Assembly (NCBI RefSeq): GCF_024609325.1 | Contig: NZ_JANHMQ010000005.1 | Location: 1-64,000, forward strand | Reading direction: 5' to 3' | DNA from: Geothrix fuzhouensis | GTDB taxonomy: Bacteria; Acidobacteriota; Holophagae; Holophagales; Holophagaceae | Length of the DNA: 64,000 nucleotides | Shown here: in pieces, positions 7,263 through 62,038 of the stretch | Numbering within the stretch: position 1 is the first letter of the stretch | How the letters are laid out: the number at the start of each line of letters is the position of its first letter | Translations under genes and position numbers: made by a program | Notes under the pieces: generated by a model | Told to the model about the DNA's origin: nothing | The model's input: the letters and a program-made list of their open reading frames with translations, nothing else | Database searches by the model: none

Positions 7263-7337
7263 GGTCCCATCGTATAGCGGTTAGTACACCGCCCTCTCAC
7301 GGCGGGAACAGGGGTTCGATTCCCCTTGGGACTACCA
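7263..7337 (+). tRNA. tRNA-Glu (anticodon CTC)
   Basis: The acceptor GGTCCCA pairs with TGGGACT (one G-U pair), then discriminator A and encoded CCA. The anticodon arm CCGCC-CTCTCAC-GGCGG gives CTC (codon GAG). The 3' end of this tRNA is copied several times in the following 500 bases: direct copies end at 7552 and 7840, and inverted copies follow each terminator. Confidence 0.93.
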
Positions 7338-7392
7338 ACACGGCCCGGCGCAAGCCGGGCCTTTTTCATGTCCCAAGGGGAATCGAAATCAC
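7318..7392 (+). repeat. tRNA-tail block, copy 1 (T1)
   Basis: A 75-base block made of the last 20 bases of tRNA-Glu, the terminator, and an 18-base inverted copy of the tRNA 3' end (7370-7387, antisense to tRNA positions 7315-7332). The same block recurs at 7533-7607. Confidence 0.85.
7342..7366 (+). terminator. Intrinsic terminator after tRNA-Glu
   Basis: GGCCCGGC, loop GCAA, GCCGGGCC, then TTTTT. It is repeated identically at about 7557-7581 as part of a duplicated 75-base block. Confidence 0.85.
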
Positions 7393-7401
7393 GGATGGCG
7401 C

Positions 7402-7552
7402 GCAGGTAGGGCCAGGCGTGGACAGCCTGGGGGGCTGTTCGCGCCGATCCGCCGCAGGCGGAGGCCCGTGCGCAGCCAGCCGTGCGGCCGGAACGTCACC
7501 TCGGAGGCGTAGCCGCAGAGGTGACGTGGAGGGATTCCCCTTGGGACTACCA
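7402..7552 (+). repeat. tRNA-Glu tail element, copy R1
   Basis: A 151-base unit that ends with a direct copy of the tRNA-Glu 3' sequence including ACTACCA. It contains several hairpins: GGACAGCC with GGCTGTTC, CCGCC-GCA-GGCGG, and a 10-bp arm ACGTCACCTC (7493-7502) with GAGGTGACGT (7518-7527). No credible protein is encoded; open frames on both strands are composition artefacts. Confidence 0.85.
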
Positions 7553-7607
7553 ACACGGCCCGGCGCAAGCCGGGCCTTTTTCATGTCCCAAGGGGAATCG
7601 AAATCAC
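7533..7607 (+). repeat. tRNA-tail block, copy 2 (T2)
   Basis: A second copy of the block at 7318-7392, apparently identical over 75 bases, so terminator and inverted tRNA tail are both duplicated. It overlaps the last 20 bases of R1, in the same way that T1 overlaps the tRNA itself. Confidence 0.85.
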
Positions 7608-7689
7608 AGGTTGGCGAAGCCCAGACGGGTGGCGAAGGGCGCTGCCACGGCAGCGCACGAAGCCGGGTACCCGTCGGGTTGAGCATCAG

Positions 7690-7840
7690 GCAGGTAGGGC
7701 CAGGCGTGGACAGCCTGGGGGGCTGTTCGCGCCGATCCGCCGCAGGCGGAGGCCCGTGCGTAGCCAGCCGTGCGGCCAGAACGTCACCTCGGAGGCGCAG
7801 CCGCAGAGGTGACGTGGAGGGATTCCCCTTGGGACTACCA
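7690..7840 (+). repeat. tRNA-Glu tail element, copy R2
   Basis: A second copy of R1, 288 bases downstream, with about three substitutions over 151 bases. It again ends in the tRNA-Glu 3' sequence with ACTACCA. Between T2 and R2 lie about 80 unique bases. After R2 the sequence leaves the array; 7841-8128 holds no gene that I can support. Confidence 0.85.
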
Positions 7841-8128
7841 GCAAAGAGGCAAGAGAAATCTAGGCTCTTCTGGTTTTTAGGCGGCATGCCTCTAGCCTGT
7901 TTTGGCTTCAGGGGGAAACGAGGAGGAAAAGCCCGGCCCACGGGATCATGCCGCCAGTGGTCGAGGGCGCCCCCATGCCCTTGCTTGAGTGCCTCCTCGC
8001 GGGGCCTTCCCCGCGCGTCGATGGATGGGTGGCCTCGACGGTGATTTAGCCCGCTGTATGGGAGGCCCGCGGCTCATCCGGAGCGCCCCTGGGCCGCAGC
8101 CTGCCCACTTCCAGGTAAGGTAATCCCC

Positions 8129-11100
8129 ATGTCCCCCGCGCTCGATGCCTTCCTGAAGACCTGGCGAGGGTCCGCCGGCAACGAGCGGGCCAACTTCCAG
8201 TCCTTCCTGCGCGACTTCTGCGCGGCGCTGGAGCTGCCGGTGCCCGAGCCCAAGGGCGTGGAGTCCACCCACTGCTTCGAGAAGGATCTGAAGCTCACCC
8301 ACCTGGACGGCACCACCTCCACGGGCAGCATCGACCTCTACCGCGAGGACTGCTTCGTGCTGGAGGCCAAGCAGGGCAGCACCACCGACGTGCCCGGCTC
8401 CGCCCCCCGCCGGGGCACCCGTGCCTACGATCGCTACATGGAAGCGGCATTTGGGCAGGCCGTGAACTACGCCCGCAACCTGCCCCAGCGCCCGCCCTTC
8501 GTCATCACCTGCGACATTGGCCACGCATTCCACGTATGGGACGGCTTCGCCGGGGCCTACGGCGGCTATGGCGCCCGGCGCAGCTTCACCATGGACGACC
8601 TGCGGACGCCGAAAGTGCAGGAGTACTTCCGCGCCCTCTGGCTTGATCCCCAGAGTCTCGATCCCGCCCGCTCGCGCACCGCCGTCACCCGCGACGTGGC
8701 CGCGGCCCTGGGCGGGCTGGCCCACAGCCTGGAGGCCCGCTTCCCCGCTGAAGTCGTGGCCCGCTTCCTCATGCGCGTGGTGTTCACCTTCTTCGCGGAG
8801 GACGTGAGCCTGCTGCCCGAAAAGCTCTTCCAGAACGCCCTGGAGGGGGCCTGGAAGGAGCATCCCGAAGCCTTCCCCAAGGGCATGGAAAGCCTGTGGG
8901 ACGCCATGAACACCGGCGGTTTCTGGGGGCCGCTCAAGGTGCTGCGCTTCAACGGTGGCCTGTTCTCCGAAAGCCTGGCCCTGGATCTCAACGCCGACGA
9001 AATCGCCCGGCTGGCCAAGGCCGCCGCCTTCAACTGGGCCGAGGTGGATCCCAGCATCTTCGGCACCCTGCTGGAGAGCGCCCTGGACGCCCGCGAGCGG
9101 CACCGCCTGGGCGCCCACTACACGCCCCGCGCCTATGTGGAGCGCCTGCTCCGGCCCGCCCTGGAGGAACCCCTCCGCGCCGACTGGGAGCTGGCCCAGG
9201 CCGAGGCCATGGCGCTGCTCGGCGCTGAAGCCACGGACGCCGACAAGGCCAAGGCCCGCGAGGTGCTCCACGACTTCCAGCGCCACCTGGCCCACGTGAA
9301 GGTGCTGGATCCGGCCTGCGGCAGCGGCAACTTTTTGGCCACGGCCTACGATGTGCTGAAGCGGCTGGAGGGCGAGGTGCAGCGCCGCCTGGAGGATCTG
9401 GGCGAAACGGGTCGCTCCCTGGCTCTGGAGGGCGTGCTGGTGACGCCCGCGCAGTTCGTGGGCCTGGAGGTGAAGCCCTGGGCCGCCGCCATCACCGACC
9501 TGGTGCTATGGATCAGCCACCTGCAATGGTTCCACCGCCTGCACCCCGACCTGGCCCCACCGGAGCCCGTGCTCCAGGCCTACGGCAACATCCAGTGCCG
9601 CGACGCCGTGCTGACCTGGACCGGCACCCGCGCCACGGGCCGCAGCCGCTGGGACGGCCAGACCTTCAAGACCCACCCCGTCACCGGCAAGGACGTGCCC
9701 GACGAGGCCGCCCAGACAGCCATTGTCGAGTACCTGGAGCCGGAGCCTGCGTCCTGGCCCGAGGCCGACTTCATCGTCGGCAATCCGCCATTCCTGGGGA
9801 ACGCCCGGATGCGTGATGCCTTGGGCGATGGCTATGCCGAGGCTCTCCGCGCCGCCTATCCCGACGTGCCCGACACCGTGGATTTCGTGTTGTATTGGTG
9901 GCACAAGGCCGCCGAGGCCGTGCGCTCGGGTCGTACCCGCCGCTTCGGCCTCATCACCACCAACAGCCTGCGCCAGGTGCGCCAGCGCGGCGTCATCGCC
10001 CATCACACGACCGGGAAGAAGCCCCTGAAGCTGCTCTGGGTCATCCCCGACCACCCCTGGACCGACGAGGGCGCCGCCGTCCGCATCGCCATGACCGTGG
10101 GTGGCATGGAGGGGCATCCTTGGCTTGGGCGCGTGGTCGAAGAGGGTAGTGGTGACACCCCGGAAATCGAGGCCCAAACCGTGAAAGTTGAAGGGCAGGG
10201 AGTTGATCTAATCAACGAAGATCTCAGCCAGGGTGCCAACCTCACCCAAGCGCAACCCCTGAAGGCAAACTCATCCCTTTGTTCCCGAGGAATGGAATTG
10301 AGAGGTAAGGGGTTCATCGTGACCCCGGAGACGTGGAACTCCTGGGGGCAACCCGCCGTAGTGCATCACTATCGTAATGGTCGAGACCTCACCGACACTC
10401 CACGCGGAGTGATGGTTATTGACCTATTTGGGCTCAGAGAATCTCAGATTCGAGAGCGGTATCCCAGCATCTACCAACATGTCGTTGACAACGTAAAACC
10501 TGAGCGTGAACAGAACAATCGCGCCGCATCCAGAGATGGCTGGTGGTTGTATGGAGAGGCTAGAAGTACTTTCAGGCCGGCATTGGTGGGTCTTCGTCGG
10601 TTCATCGCAGTCCCCCACATTGCTAAATATCGGGCTTATCAATTTCTGGATGCGGGGGTGATTCCAGACAACATGCTGATTGCTTTCGCGTTTGACGATG
10701 CTTGGGTGCTAGGTGTTCTCCAGTCTTCCATTCACGAGAAATGGACACTAGTTTCAGGGGGAACACTTGAGGATCGCCCCATCTATTACAAATCCCGCTG
10801 CTTCGACCCCTTCCCCTTCCCGAACGCCACGGAGCCGCAGAAGGCTCGTATCCGCGACCTGGCGGAGCGTCTGGATGCCCACCGCAAGGCGGCCCAGGGG
10901 CGGGGCGTGACCATCACGGGCATGTACAACCTCCTGGCCAAGCTGCGGTCGGGCGAGGCCTTCACGGCCAAGGAGCGCGAGCAGCACGAGGCCGCGCAGA
11001 CCGAGATCCTGCGTCAGCTCCACGACGAGCTGGACGAGGCCGTGATCGAGGCCTACGGATGGAACCAAGACCAGGGGAACCACCGATGCACACCGATGAA

Positions 11101-11611
11101 CACCGATAACAGCTTGGAAAATCATTCTTTGATCGGTGTGCATCGGAGTTCATCGGTGGCTAATCCATCTTTGCCTTCGGCGGCTCTCAGCGATGCCGAA
11201 ATCCTGGAGCGCCTGGTGGCCCTGAACAAGGAACGCGCCGCCGAGGAGGCCCGAGGCCTCGTCCGCTGGCTGCGCCCCGAGTACCAGGCTCCCGAAGCCG
11301 CGCAGGCTGCCGCGAAGCCCATGCTCGAAGAAGAGCGAGCGTTGGCCTCCGAAGCCAACGTCCCCTTGGCTCTCGAACCTCAGCCCTGGCCCAAGGGCCT
11401 CAAGGACCAGCTCGCCGCCCTCCGTGCCGTGCTGCTGGCCTCTGCCCGCCTGTGGACCCTGGAGGATGTGGCCAAAACCTTCAAGAGCAAAGGCCGCTAC
11501 CGCGACAGCATCACCGCCCACCTGGACCTGCTCACCGACCTCGGCATGCTGAGCCGCGTCGAAACCCCCGAAGGCCCCCGCTGGCACCGGCCCCAGGCCC
11601 TGGGCGCGTGA
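8129..11611 (+). CDS. Type IIG/IIL (MmeI-like) fused restriction-modification enzyme
   Basis: A 1160-residue single-chain enzyme that should both methylate and cut DNA. The N-terminal nuclease shows D69 and E79-A-K81 of a PD-(D/E)xK site (LEAKQG). The N6-adenine methyltransferase core has motif I DPACGSGNF near residue 394 and motif IV NPPF near 552. A target-recognition region lies at about 680-890, and a C-terminal helical region ends in a winged-helix-like tail. The DNA for residues about 680-890 is visibly AT-richer, with different codon choice, as expected for an exchanged specificity domain. Residues about 985-1010 come from a palindromic repeat inserted in frame (11080-11159). There is no separate specificity or helicase gene. 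The cognate site cannot be predicted here. Confidence 0.85.
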   Translation: MSPALDAFLKTWRGSAGNERANFQSFLRDFCAALELPVPEPKGVESTHCFEKDLKLTHLDGTTSTGSIDLYREDCFVLEAKQGSTTDVPGSAPRRGTRAYDRYMEAAFGQAVNYARNLPQRPPFVITCDIGHAFHVWDGFAGAYGGYGARRSFTMDDLRTPKVQEYFRALWLDPQSLDPARSRTAVTRDVAAALGGLAHSLEARFPAEVVARFLMRVVFTFFAEDVSLLPEKLFQNALEGAWKEHPEAFPKGMESLWDAMNTGGFWGPLKVLRFNGGLFSESLALDLNADEIARLAKAAAFNWAEVDPSIFGTLLESALDARERHRLGAHYTPRAYVERLLRPALEEPLRADWELAQAEAMALLGAEATDADKAKAREVLHDFQRHLAHVKVLDPACGSGNFLATAYDVLKRLEGEVQRRLEDLGETGRSLALEGVLVTPAQFVGLEVKPWAAAITDLVLWISHLQWFHRLHPDLAPPEPVLQAYGNIQCRDAVLTWTGTRATGRSRWDGQTFKTHPVTGKDVPDEAAQTAIVEYLEPEPASWPEADFIVGNPPFLGNARMRDALGDGYAEALRAAYPDVPDTVDFVLYWWHKAAEAVRSGRTRRFGLITTNSLRQVRQRGVIAHHTTGKKPLKLLWVIPDHPWTDEGAAVRIAMTVGGMEGHPWLGRVVEEGSGDTPEIEAQTVKVEGQGVDLINEDLSQGANLTQAQPLKANSSLCSRGMELRGKGFIVTPETWNSWGQPAVVHHYRNGRDLTDTPRGVMVIDLFGLRESQIRERYPSIYQHVVDNVKPEREQNNRAASRDGWWLYGEARSTFRPALVGLRRFIAVPHIAKYRAYQFLDAGVIPDNMLIAFAFDDAWVLGVLQSSIHEKWTLVSGGTLEDRPIYYKSRCFDPFPFPNATEPQKARIRDLAERLDAHRKAAQGRGVTITGMYNLLAKLRSGEAFTAKEREQHEAAQTEILRQLHDELDEAVIEAYGWNQDQGNHRCTPMNTDNSLENHSLIGVHRSSSVANPSLPSAALSDAEILERLVALNKERAAEEARGLVRWLRPEYQAPEAAQAAAKPMLEEERALASEANVPLALEPQPWPKGLKDQLAALRAVLLASARLWTLEDVAKTFKSKGRYRDSITAHLDLLTDLGMLSRVETPEGPRWHRPQALGA
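11080..11159. repeat. Palindromic repeat with iterated arms, inside the RM gene
   Basis: The left arm 11080-11107 holds two and a half copies of a CACCGATGAA-like unit; the right arm 11132-11159 is its near-perfect inverse. The spacer of 24 bases is AT-rich. The element keeps the reading frame open and adds low-complexity residues to the enzyme. Confidence 0.8.
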
Positions 11612-61697: not shown

Positions 61698-61774
61698 GGG
61701 GTTGTAGCTCAGTCGGTTAGAGTGCCGGCCTGTCACGCCGGAGGTCGCGGGTTCGAGCCCCGTCAGCCCCGCCA
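61698..61774 (+). tRNA. tRNA-Asp (anticodon GTC)
   Basis: The acceptor GGGGTTG pairs with CAGCCCC (one wobble), then G and encoded CCA. The anticodon arm CCGGC-CTGTCAC-GCCGG gives GTC. Its 3' 26 bases (61747-61772) occur again in inverted orientation 45 bases downstream. Confidence 0.94.
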
Positions 61775-61813
61775 GAACGAAAAAGGGTCCCACGCGGGAC
61801 CCTTTTTCGTTCT
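61774..61813. terminator. Long bidirectional hairpin after tRNA-Asp
   Basis: A perfect 18-bp stem (61774-61791 with 61796-61813) with four-base loop ACGC; the stem includes AAAAA/TTTTT, so it can end transcription in both directions. The first base overlaps the tRNA CCA. Confidence 0.85.
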
Positions 61814-61818
61814 GAAGC

Positions 61819-61987
61819 GCGGGGCTGACGGGGCTCGAACCCGCCCCGGCCGCGCATGCGCGGCCAGGATCCAGCGTCGAGTGCGGAGACGGCAGCGTCA
61901 GCGGAGGCCCTCCAGTGGAGGGCCGAAGTAGCTGCGGGCTACGCGGGGGACGCAAGCCCGCAGGGCGCAGCGGATCCGTTCGAGCCC
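61819..61987. repeat. tRNA-Asp tail element
   Basis: It starts with a 26-base perfect inverted copy of the tRNA-Asp 3' end (61819-61844), continues with a chain of hairpins (GGCCGCGC with GCGCGGCC, GGCCCTCCAGTGGAGGGCC, GCGGGCT with AGCCCGC) and ends with GTTCGAGCCC (61978-61987), a direct match to the tRNA T arm. This order is the same as in the tRNA-Glu array although the inner sequence differs. No protein is encoded. Confidence 0.75.
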
Positions 61988-62038
61988 TCGATCCGGTGGG
62001 TCGTGATGGAAGGTGGAGAACGGCGTGGTCCGCCTCTC

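Follow-up and report, generated by a model that had tools for sequence, protein, structure and literature searches.

Units with tRNA-tailored ends, resembling E. coli RtT repeats, downstream of tRNA-Glu in Geothrix fuzhouensis and of other tRNA genes in Holophagaceae

The window analyzed here is a 64,000-nt stretch from Geothrix fuzhouensis (contig NZ_JANHMQ010000005.1, positions 1 to 64,000, forward strand). It contains two tRNA genes with structured units downstream (Table 1). The tRNA-Glu gene is followed by an array of two units, and the tRNA-Asp gene is followed by one. The array at tRNA-Glu (7338-7840) is 503 bp long. It is cargo-free and too small for an integrase gene.

Table 1. Positions of the features at the tRNA-Glu and tRNA-Asp loci of the window.
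Feature	Position	Strand	Call or model
tRNA-Glu(CTC), host gene of the array	7263..7337	+	ARAGORN, Rfam
Terminator hairpin 1, then TTTTT	7342..7361	+	intrinsic-terminator call
Antisense copy 1 of the tRNA-Glu 3' end (T-loop to acceptor), 18 nt, 100%	7370..7387	+	
Structured core 1, group B	7386..7487	+	model R2, 114.5 bits; itself in the building set of R2
Unit 1, third hairpin	7493..7527	+	
Sense copy 1 of the tRNA-Glu 3' end with CCA (direct repeat)	7533..7552	+	
Terminator hairpin 2, same sequence as hairpin 1	7557..7576	+	
Antisense copy 2 of the tRNA-Glu 3' end, 18 nt, 100%	7585..7602	+	
REP-like dispersed repeat within unit 2, separate element	about 7613..7689	+	
Structured core 2	7676..7775	+	model R2, 68.8 bits
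Unit 2, third hairpin	7781..7815	+	
Sense copy 2 of the tRNA-Glu 3' end with CCA	7821..7840	+	
Distal flank, of the type directly 3' of tRNA-Glu in array-less relatives (GCAAACACCCTAGAGAAATCTAGGG...)	7841..7890	+	
tRNA-Asp(GTC), second host gene of the window	61698..61774	+	
Palindromic terminator 3' of tRNA-Asp	61775..61812	+	
Antisense copy of the 3' end of tRNA-Asp itself, 26 nt, perfect	61819..61844	+	
Structured unit 3' of tRNA-Asp, sense T-loop copy at its end	61845..61989	+	

A 75-nt block at 7318-7392 is identical to the block at 7533-7607 (100%). Each block holds a terminator and an 18-base inverted copy of the tRNA 3' end, and on these three points the original prediction was correct. 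It had also described two 151-base hairpin units. Their repetition was recovered (7402-7555 versus 7690-7843, 97% identity), but the repeated length is 154 nt. The sense tail GATTCCCCTTGGGACTACCA is found at 7318, 7533, and 7821 and at no other site in the 64 kb with up to 3 mismatches. It did not occur in 100 shuffles.

Unit 2 is longer than unit 1 because the REP-like repeat lies inside it. Reading this module (7613-7689) as a part of the unit was rejected, as it is a separate dispersed repeat. It has the form GGCGAAGCCCAGACGGGTGGCG-hairpin-CGAAGCCGGGTACCCGTCGGGTTGAGCATC. In relatives its copies lie away from tRNAs (L237 to L251), and those that were read follow the stop codons of protein genes. 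They are sometimes tandem, with a 65-bp period in L239. Directly downstream of the array lies an MmeI-type restriction-modification gene (8129-11611; Pfam MmeI_N, Mtase, and TRD), which is possibly the cargo of an island at tRNA-Glu.

Units of the same kind follow other tRNA genes in Geothrix and its relatives, which include G. oryzisoli. They are about 100 to 290 bp long and gene-free. Each contains, in this order, an antisense copy of the 3' region of its host tRNA, a core with 2 to 4 hairpins, and a sense copy of the T-loop region. The antisense and sense copies pair with each other as the closing helix of the unit.

The cores fall into two groups, for which models R1 (group A) and R2 (group B) were built. 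Group B units follow the Glu, Cys, Gln, Ser, Asn, and other tRNAs. Their sense copy extends through the CCA, and at Glu, Cys, Ser, and others it is an exact 20-nt copy of the tRNA 3' end with CCA. A copy of the terminator often comes after it, between neighboring units. Group A units follow the Pro, Thr, Arg, His, and Met tRNAs. Their sense side is limited to about 10 nt of the T-loop, a sequence common to most tRNAs, and is not tailored. Their antisense copy is tRNA-specific and extends to the 5' strand of the T-stem. The unit at 61845-61989 diverges from R1 (14.5 bits, E 0.52). A single unbroken palindrome, through CCA/TGG, spans the tRNA end, the terminator, and the antisense copy at several tRNAs. 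The tRNA-Arg-TCT loci (L127, L225, L232, and L303) are without the usual terminator, and the antisense copy begins 0 to 1 nt past the CCA. There the tRNA 3' half and the trailer form a hairpin of about 19 to 24 bp, with the CCA in or beside the loop, and this arrangement is kept in four species.

The 46 tRNA genes of the Geothrix genome were examined, each with 1 kb downstream. An antisense copy of the gene's own 3' end was found within 150 nt downstream of 13 of them, versus 0.5 expected from the tails of other tRNAs. In a permutation of the labels, the observed sum was never reached. Regions upstream of the tRNA genes gave no antisense-tail signal. Three further genomes were tested in the same way. 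A second Geothrix (G033) gave 5 of 31 genes, a member of a related genus (G143) gave 3 of 31, and G053, an acidobacterium from a different family, gave 0 of 33 (P 0.96).

At E<=1, R1 has 17 sites in the window's genome, and all 17 are 3' of a tRNA on the tRNA strand. Nearly all core matches in the relatives have this position and strand as well. R2 matches lie 3' of the Glu, Gln, Cys, Asn, four Ser, Leu, and Pro tRNAs; only 3 of 30 R2 loci have no upstream tRNA, and two of these are at contig edges. With both core types together, about 20 tRNA species serve as hosts in Holophagaceae. Among 199 Acidobacteriota genomes, R1 was found in 16 and R2 in 15. All carriers are Holophagaceae (Geothrix and three other genera), and neither model had a match outside this family in that set. 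For R2, a search without a positive control covered 36 genomes that had been accessed via loci from other phyla and gave no match. Viral carriage was also considered and rejected: a 14-nt core pattern gave chance matches that R2 did not confirm, and the group A pattern gave none.

Two loci are peculiar. One (L211, G009:C40:18239-18486) holds a pair of identical group A units that are oppositely oriented and 150 bp from each other, and no tRNA was found there; it is either an assembly artifact or a true inverted duplication. At a tRNA-Pro-TGG locus (L143, about 1580-1760), long G/C runs with Ns fill the space from the tRNA to the first unit. These probably reflect a fault of assembly or sequencing where the palindrome is strong.

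The original prediction had named absence from close relatives as its refutation, and the structures are instead common in Holophagaceae. A local accident of tandem duplication, without wider meaning, would account for tandem units that are 97 to 100% identical. It is refuted by the same architecture, with tailored ends, after many tRNAs in several genera, and we give it practically no credence. The same anatomy occurs in Geothrix, in its closest relatives, and in the RtT repeats of E. coli described below, so the structure in the window is an instance of a wider class.

The ends of the units were compared with their host tRNAs. Antisense fit was scored against 17 isoacceptors (the own tRNA and 16 others). 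The own tRNA was the best fit in 39 of 54 arrays and was best or tied in 46, and the misfits were mostly sister isoacceptors for the same amino acid. For tRNA tails that vary among species, the antisense copy fits the tail of its own species better in 10 cases and worse in 0. In the tRNA-Cys array of G009, one substitution in the tRNA is mirrored in the sense copy as well as in the two antisense copies. The closest core sits at another tRNA in 34 of 57 cases. The remaining 23 nearest cores are at the same tRNA, which is still above the 9.6 expected by chance. The group B core is 80 to 88% identical between the Glu and Gln loci, and the Gln locus has Gln-matched ends. The repeat is real and family-wide, and what surprises is that both ends are tailored to many tRNAs.

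The cores are under structural constraint, and both types show strong compensatory changes in their base pairs. The R1 alignment (60 distinct units) has 94.5% paired cells, double changes in 21 of 32 pairs, and a covariation score of 0.312, versus 0.142 after shuffling and no more than 0.072 after sliding. Because the alignment had been fitted to the model, these statistics lean towards it. In the nine starting sequences of R1, RNAalifold already gives double changes in 14 of 32 pairs. R2 (ten sequences) has double changes in 18 of 36 pairs. No known RNA family matched the units. Across the helices, G-U mismatches outnumber A-C mismatches by 67 to 27, with one fixed U-G pair left out and with sequences that are related rather than phylogenetically independent. 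This excess is suggestive of an RNA of the tRNA strand. The ratio in the third helix is only 6 to 5 and favors neither RNA nor DNA, and the apical helix has few G-U intermediates.

The strand bears on another reading, in which the opposite strand encodes a tRNA-like RNA whose 3' end is the antisense end, and a bidirectional terminator is common to both genes. The palindromic terminators that are continuous with CCA/TGG at several loci fit this reading. So does a weak minus-strand match to tRNA-Sec (24.7 bits, E 0.28 to 0.93). However, that match is within chance, the G-U pairs favor the plus strand, and the 3' strand of the T-stem that such a tRNA would have is not kept in several units. We regard such a gene as very improbable.

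The gain or loss of one whole unit is seen at tRNA-Cys. The unit there is present in six Geothrix genomes and is missing exactly in G033. The alignment breaks at a 46-bp direct repeat that spans T-loop, CCA, and terminator. A truncated, older unit comes next, in G033 too. The difference may be an insertion, or a deletion in G033. A tRNA-end mobile repeat had been among the roles originally proposed. The tRNA-end repeat is supported; mobility is supported only as this precise gain or loss of a cassette, and no enzyme was found for it. At tRNA-Glu, the flank past the last sense copy resembles the flank right after the tRNA in array-less relatives. That flank could also belong to an island that has inserted itself in the final sense copy. 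Of 19 multi-unit arrays, 18 have a higher score for the first unit than for the last, and growth or selection is therefore concentrated beside the tRNA.

These features recall integrative elements that target tRNA genes (for example, Ms6, with its T-loop attB). In both, a direct repeat from T-loop to CCA bounds the insert, the distal flank is of the empty-site type, and the insert is present or absent. The Geothrix units differ in being small and gene-free, in having a built-in inverted tRNA copy, and in using many tRNAs. Tandem islands at ssrA in Dehalococcoides are serial insertions bounded by a 20-bp repeat of the 3' end of the RNA gene (PMC3146451). They have integrase genes and kilobases of cargo, whereas the Geothrix units have none.

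The repeated tRNA 3' ends may also be read as decoy attachment sites that divert integrating islands from the tRNA gene. A direct repeat from T-loop to CCA is a classical integrase target, and the distal flank at Glu is of the type found directly after tRNA-Glu in relatives. Decoys would leave the antisense copy and the conserved, covarying core unexplained, and no island in a distal copy was demonstrated here. We consider this role very improbable.

Short structured repeats such as REP/BIME elements, with their RAYT transposases, are a further comparison. A GTAG motif, in group B at the foot of a hairpin, is common to both. It prompted us to consider mobilization of the REP/RAYT type. This was rejected, since of 14 element-bearing genomes tested 13 lack the Y1 (HUH) transposase (PF01797), the window's genome among them. 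The Geothrix units also differ from REP/BIME elements in their confinement to tRNA 3' sides and in their tailored ends.

A further reading is a purely selfish cassette. It would be small and non-autonomous and insert at tRNA 3' ends, its ends would be made from the target as a direct plus an inverted copy, and its conserved fold would serve mobility, as single-stranded DNA or as RNA, with no host function. The gain and loss of units between direct repeats, the polymorphic presence at tRNA-Glu, the common cores at different tRNAs, the decayed distal units, and the scarcity of G-U intermediates in the apical helix all agree with it. Tyrosine integrases are also known to recombine within T-loops (PMC1762012), which we counted in its favor. 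Copies away from tRNAs are almost nil, however, and units are retained at the same Pro, Thr, Arg, and Cys tRNAs over many species. No mobilizing enzyme was found (the Y1 transposase result applies here too), and viral contigs are without units. We consider a purely selfish cassette a serious but rather unlikely alternative.

The closest known system is RtT, named rtT or rttR in the tyrT operon. Since 1991 it has been known as a little-understood side product of one tRNA operon in E. coli. From strain K-12 we examined this operon together with ten other regions that hold tRNA genes. Rfam RtT (RF00391) was placed 3' of tyrT/tyrV, proK, and the lys operon. All 10 units at these sites (Tyr, Pro, and Lys) end in an exact 18- to 19-nt copy of the 3' end of their own tRNA. 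The antisense copies were compared at Tyr, Pro, and lysQ only; lysT, lysW, lysY, and lysZ were left out because their matches are short (score 15). The Tyr antisense scores 29 with its own tRNA versus at most 18 with Pro and Lys tails. The proK antisense scores 24 with its own tRNA versus 17 but is tied (24) when all other K-12 tRNAs examined are included. The lysQ antisense scores 26 versus 23 and leads by 2 over all other K-12 tRNAs examined.

The original prediction had pointed to tyrT, and the parallel is closer than claimed, with antisense and sense ends from the own tRNA at tyrT/tyrV, proK, and lysQ. Both kinds of unit are 3' of tRNA genes on the tRNA strand. Both end in a 3' copy of the adjacent tRNA with CCA (group B in Geothrix), and the E. 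coli units have a 5'-side antisense copy at the three loci just named. Both have hairpins between the ends, several with GNA-type triloops, and both occur in tandem. The proK and lysQ units have a terminator before them, and a copy of it comes after the unit. The order at proK is that of the window: tRNA, terminator, antisense copy, hairpins, sense tail with CCA, and terminator. The literature that we searched on RtT/tyrT and tRNA-linked repeats gave brief mentions only, and no mention was found there of own-tRNA-matched RtT tails at Pro, Lys, and Tyr (L515, L518, and L509). Passages from two papers bear on RtT. One describes its release from tRNA primary transcripts in E. coli and its position near other tRNAs in Pasteurellaceae (PMC4986893), and the other places some rtT-like sequences within BIMEs (PMC2965389).

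RF00391 had no match at E<=1 in 15 Geothrix-type loci, versus 47 to 138 bits at the E. coli tyrT, proK, and lys loci. Unfiltered, rtT units score only 16 bits with R1 and 13.5 bits with R2. Such scores do not establish common descent. The hosts of the Geothrix type also number about 20 tRNA species, versus 3 in the E. coli regions examined. The Geothrix units are RtT-like but are not RtT.

Folding predictions suggest how the ends might act together. In the predicted fold of a read-through transcript, the antisense copy captures the tRNA 3' half (z -8.0). In the predicted fold of the whole array, each antisense copy is taken up by a sense copy, and the unit closes on itself. Pairing of the antisense copy with the tRNA 3' half would be harmful to the tRNA. 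An antisense copy that would be harmful if free is taken up by the sense copy in the array, and the sense copy would therefore be its closing partner and would also offer a CCA-type end to tRNA-trimming enzymes.

We favor, with somewhat better than even confidence, the reading that the array consists of tRNA-tailored, RtT-like cassettes whose units are gained and lost via the tRNA-end repeats and whose core acts as read-through RNA. Units may be gained and lost by recombination or integration across these repeats, and the new or intact ones would be those closest to the tRNA. The core would act as an RNA of the tRNA strand, made when polymerase passes the terminator. No promoter-like site was found at the units, and a strong terminator lies before each. 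Antisense-sense pairing would close the fold and keep the antisense copy off the real tRNA. The enzymes of tRNA maturation may then trim the transcript at the CCA copies to give a small RNA, as reported for E. coli rtT. By analogy with rtT, release of a small RNA from the Geothrix units is plausible. As to how ends might be rewritten for a new tRNA, our guess is gene conversion between inverted repeats across the palindrome or copying of the target at insertion.

A broader and doubtful proposal is that the Acidobacteriota units and gammaproteobacterial RtT form one class of minimal elements that copy their sense and antisense ends from any tRNA gene that they join. If this is true, one core could colonize many tRNA genes while sparing them from damage. 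It would also mean a target-templated mobility, with a mechanism new among transposons, integrases, and retroelements. To our knowledge, target-templated copying of ends has not been described for any of these. On the practical side, such sense and antisense tails at tRNA loci can be misread as tRNA fragments or att sites. Because the RtT anatomy recurs in a distant phylum, after about 20 tRNA species, RtT becomes a comparative problem with testable predictions.
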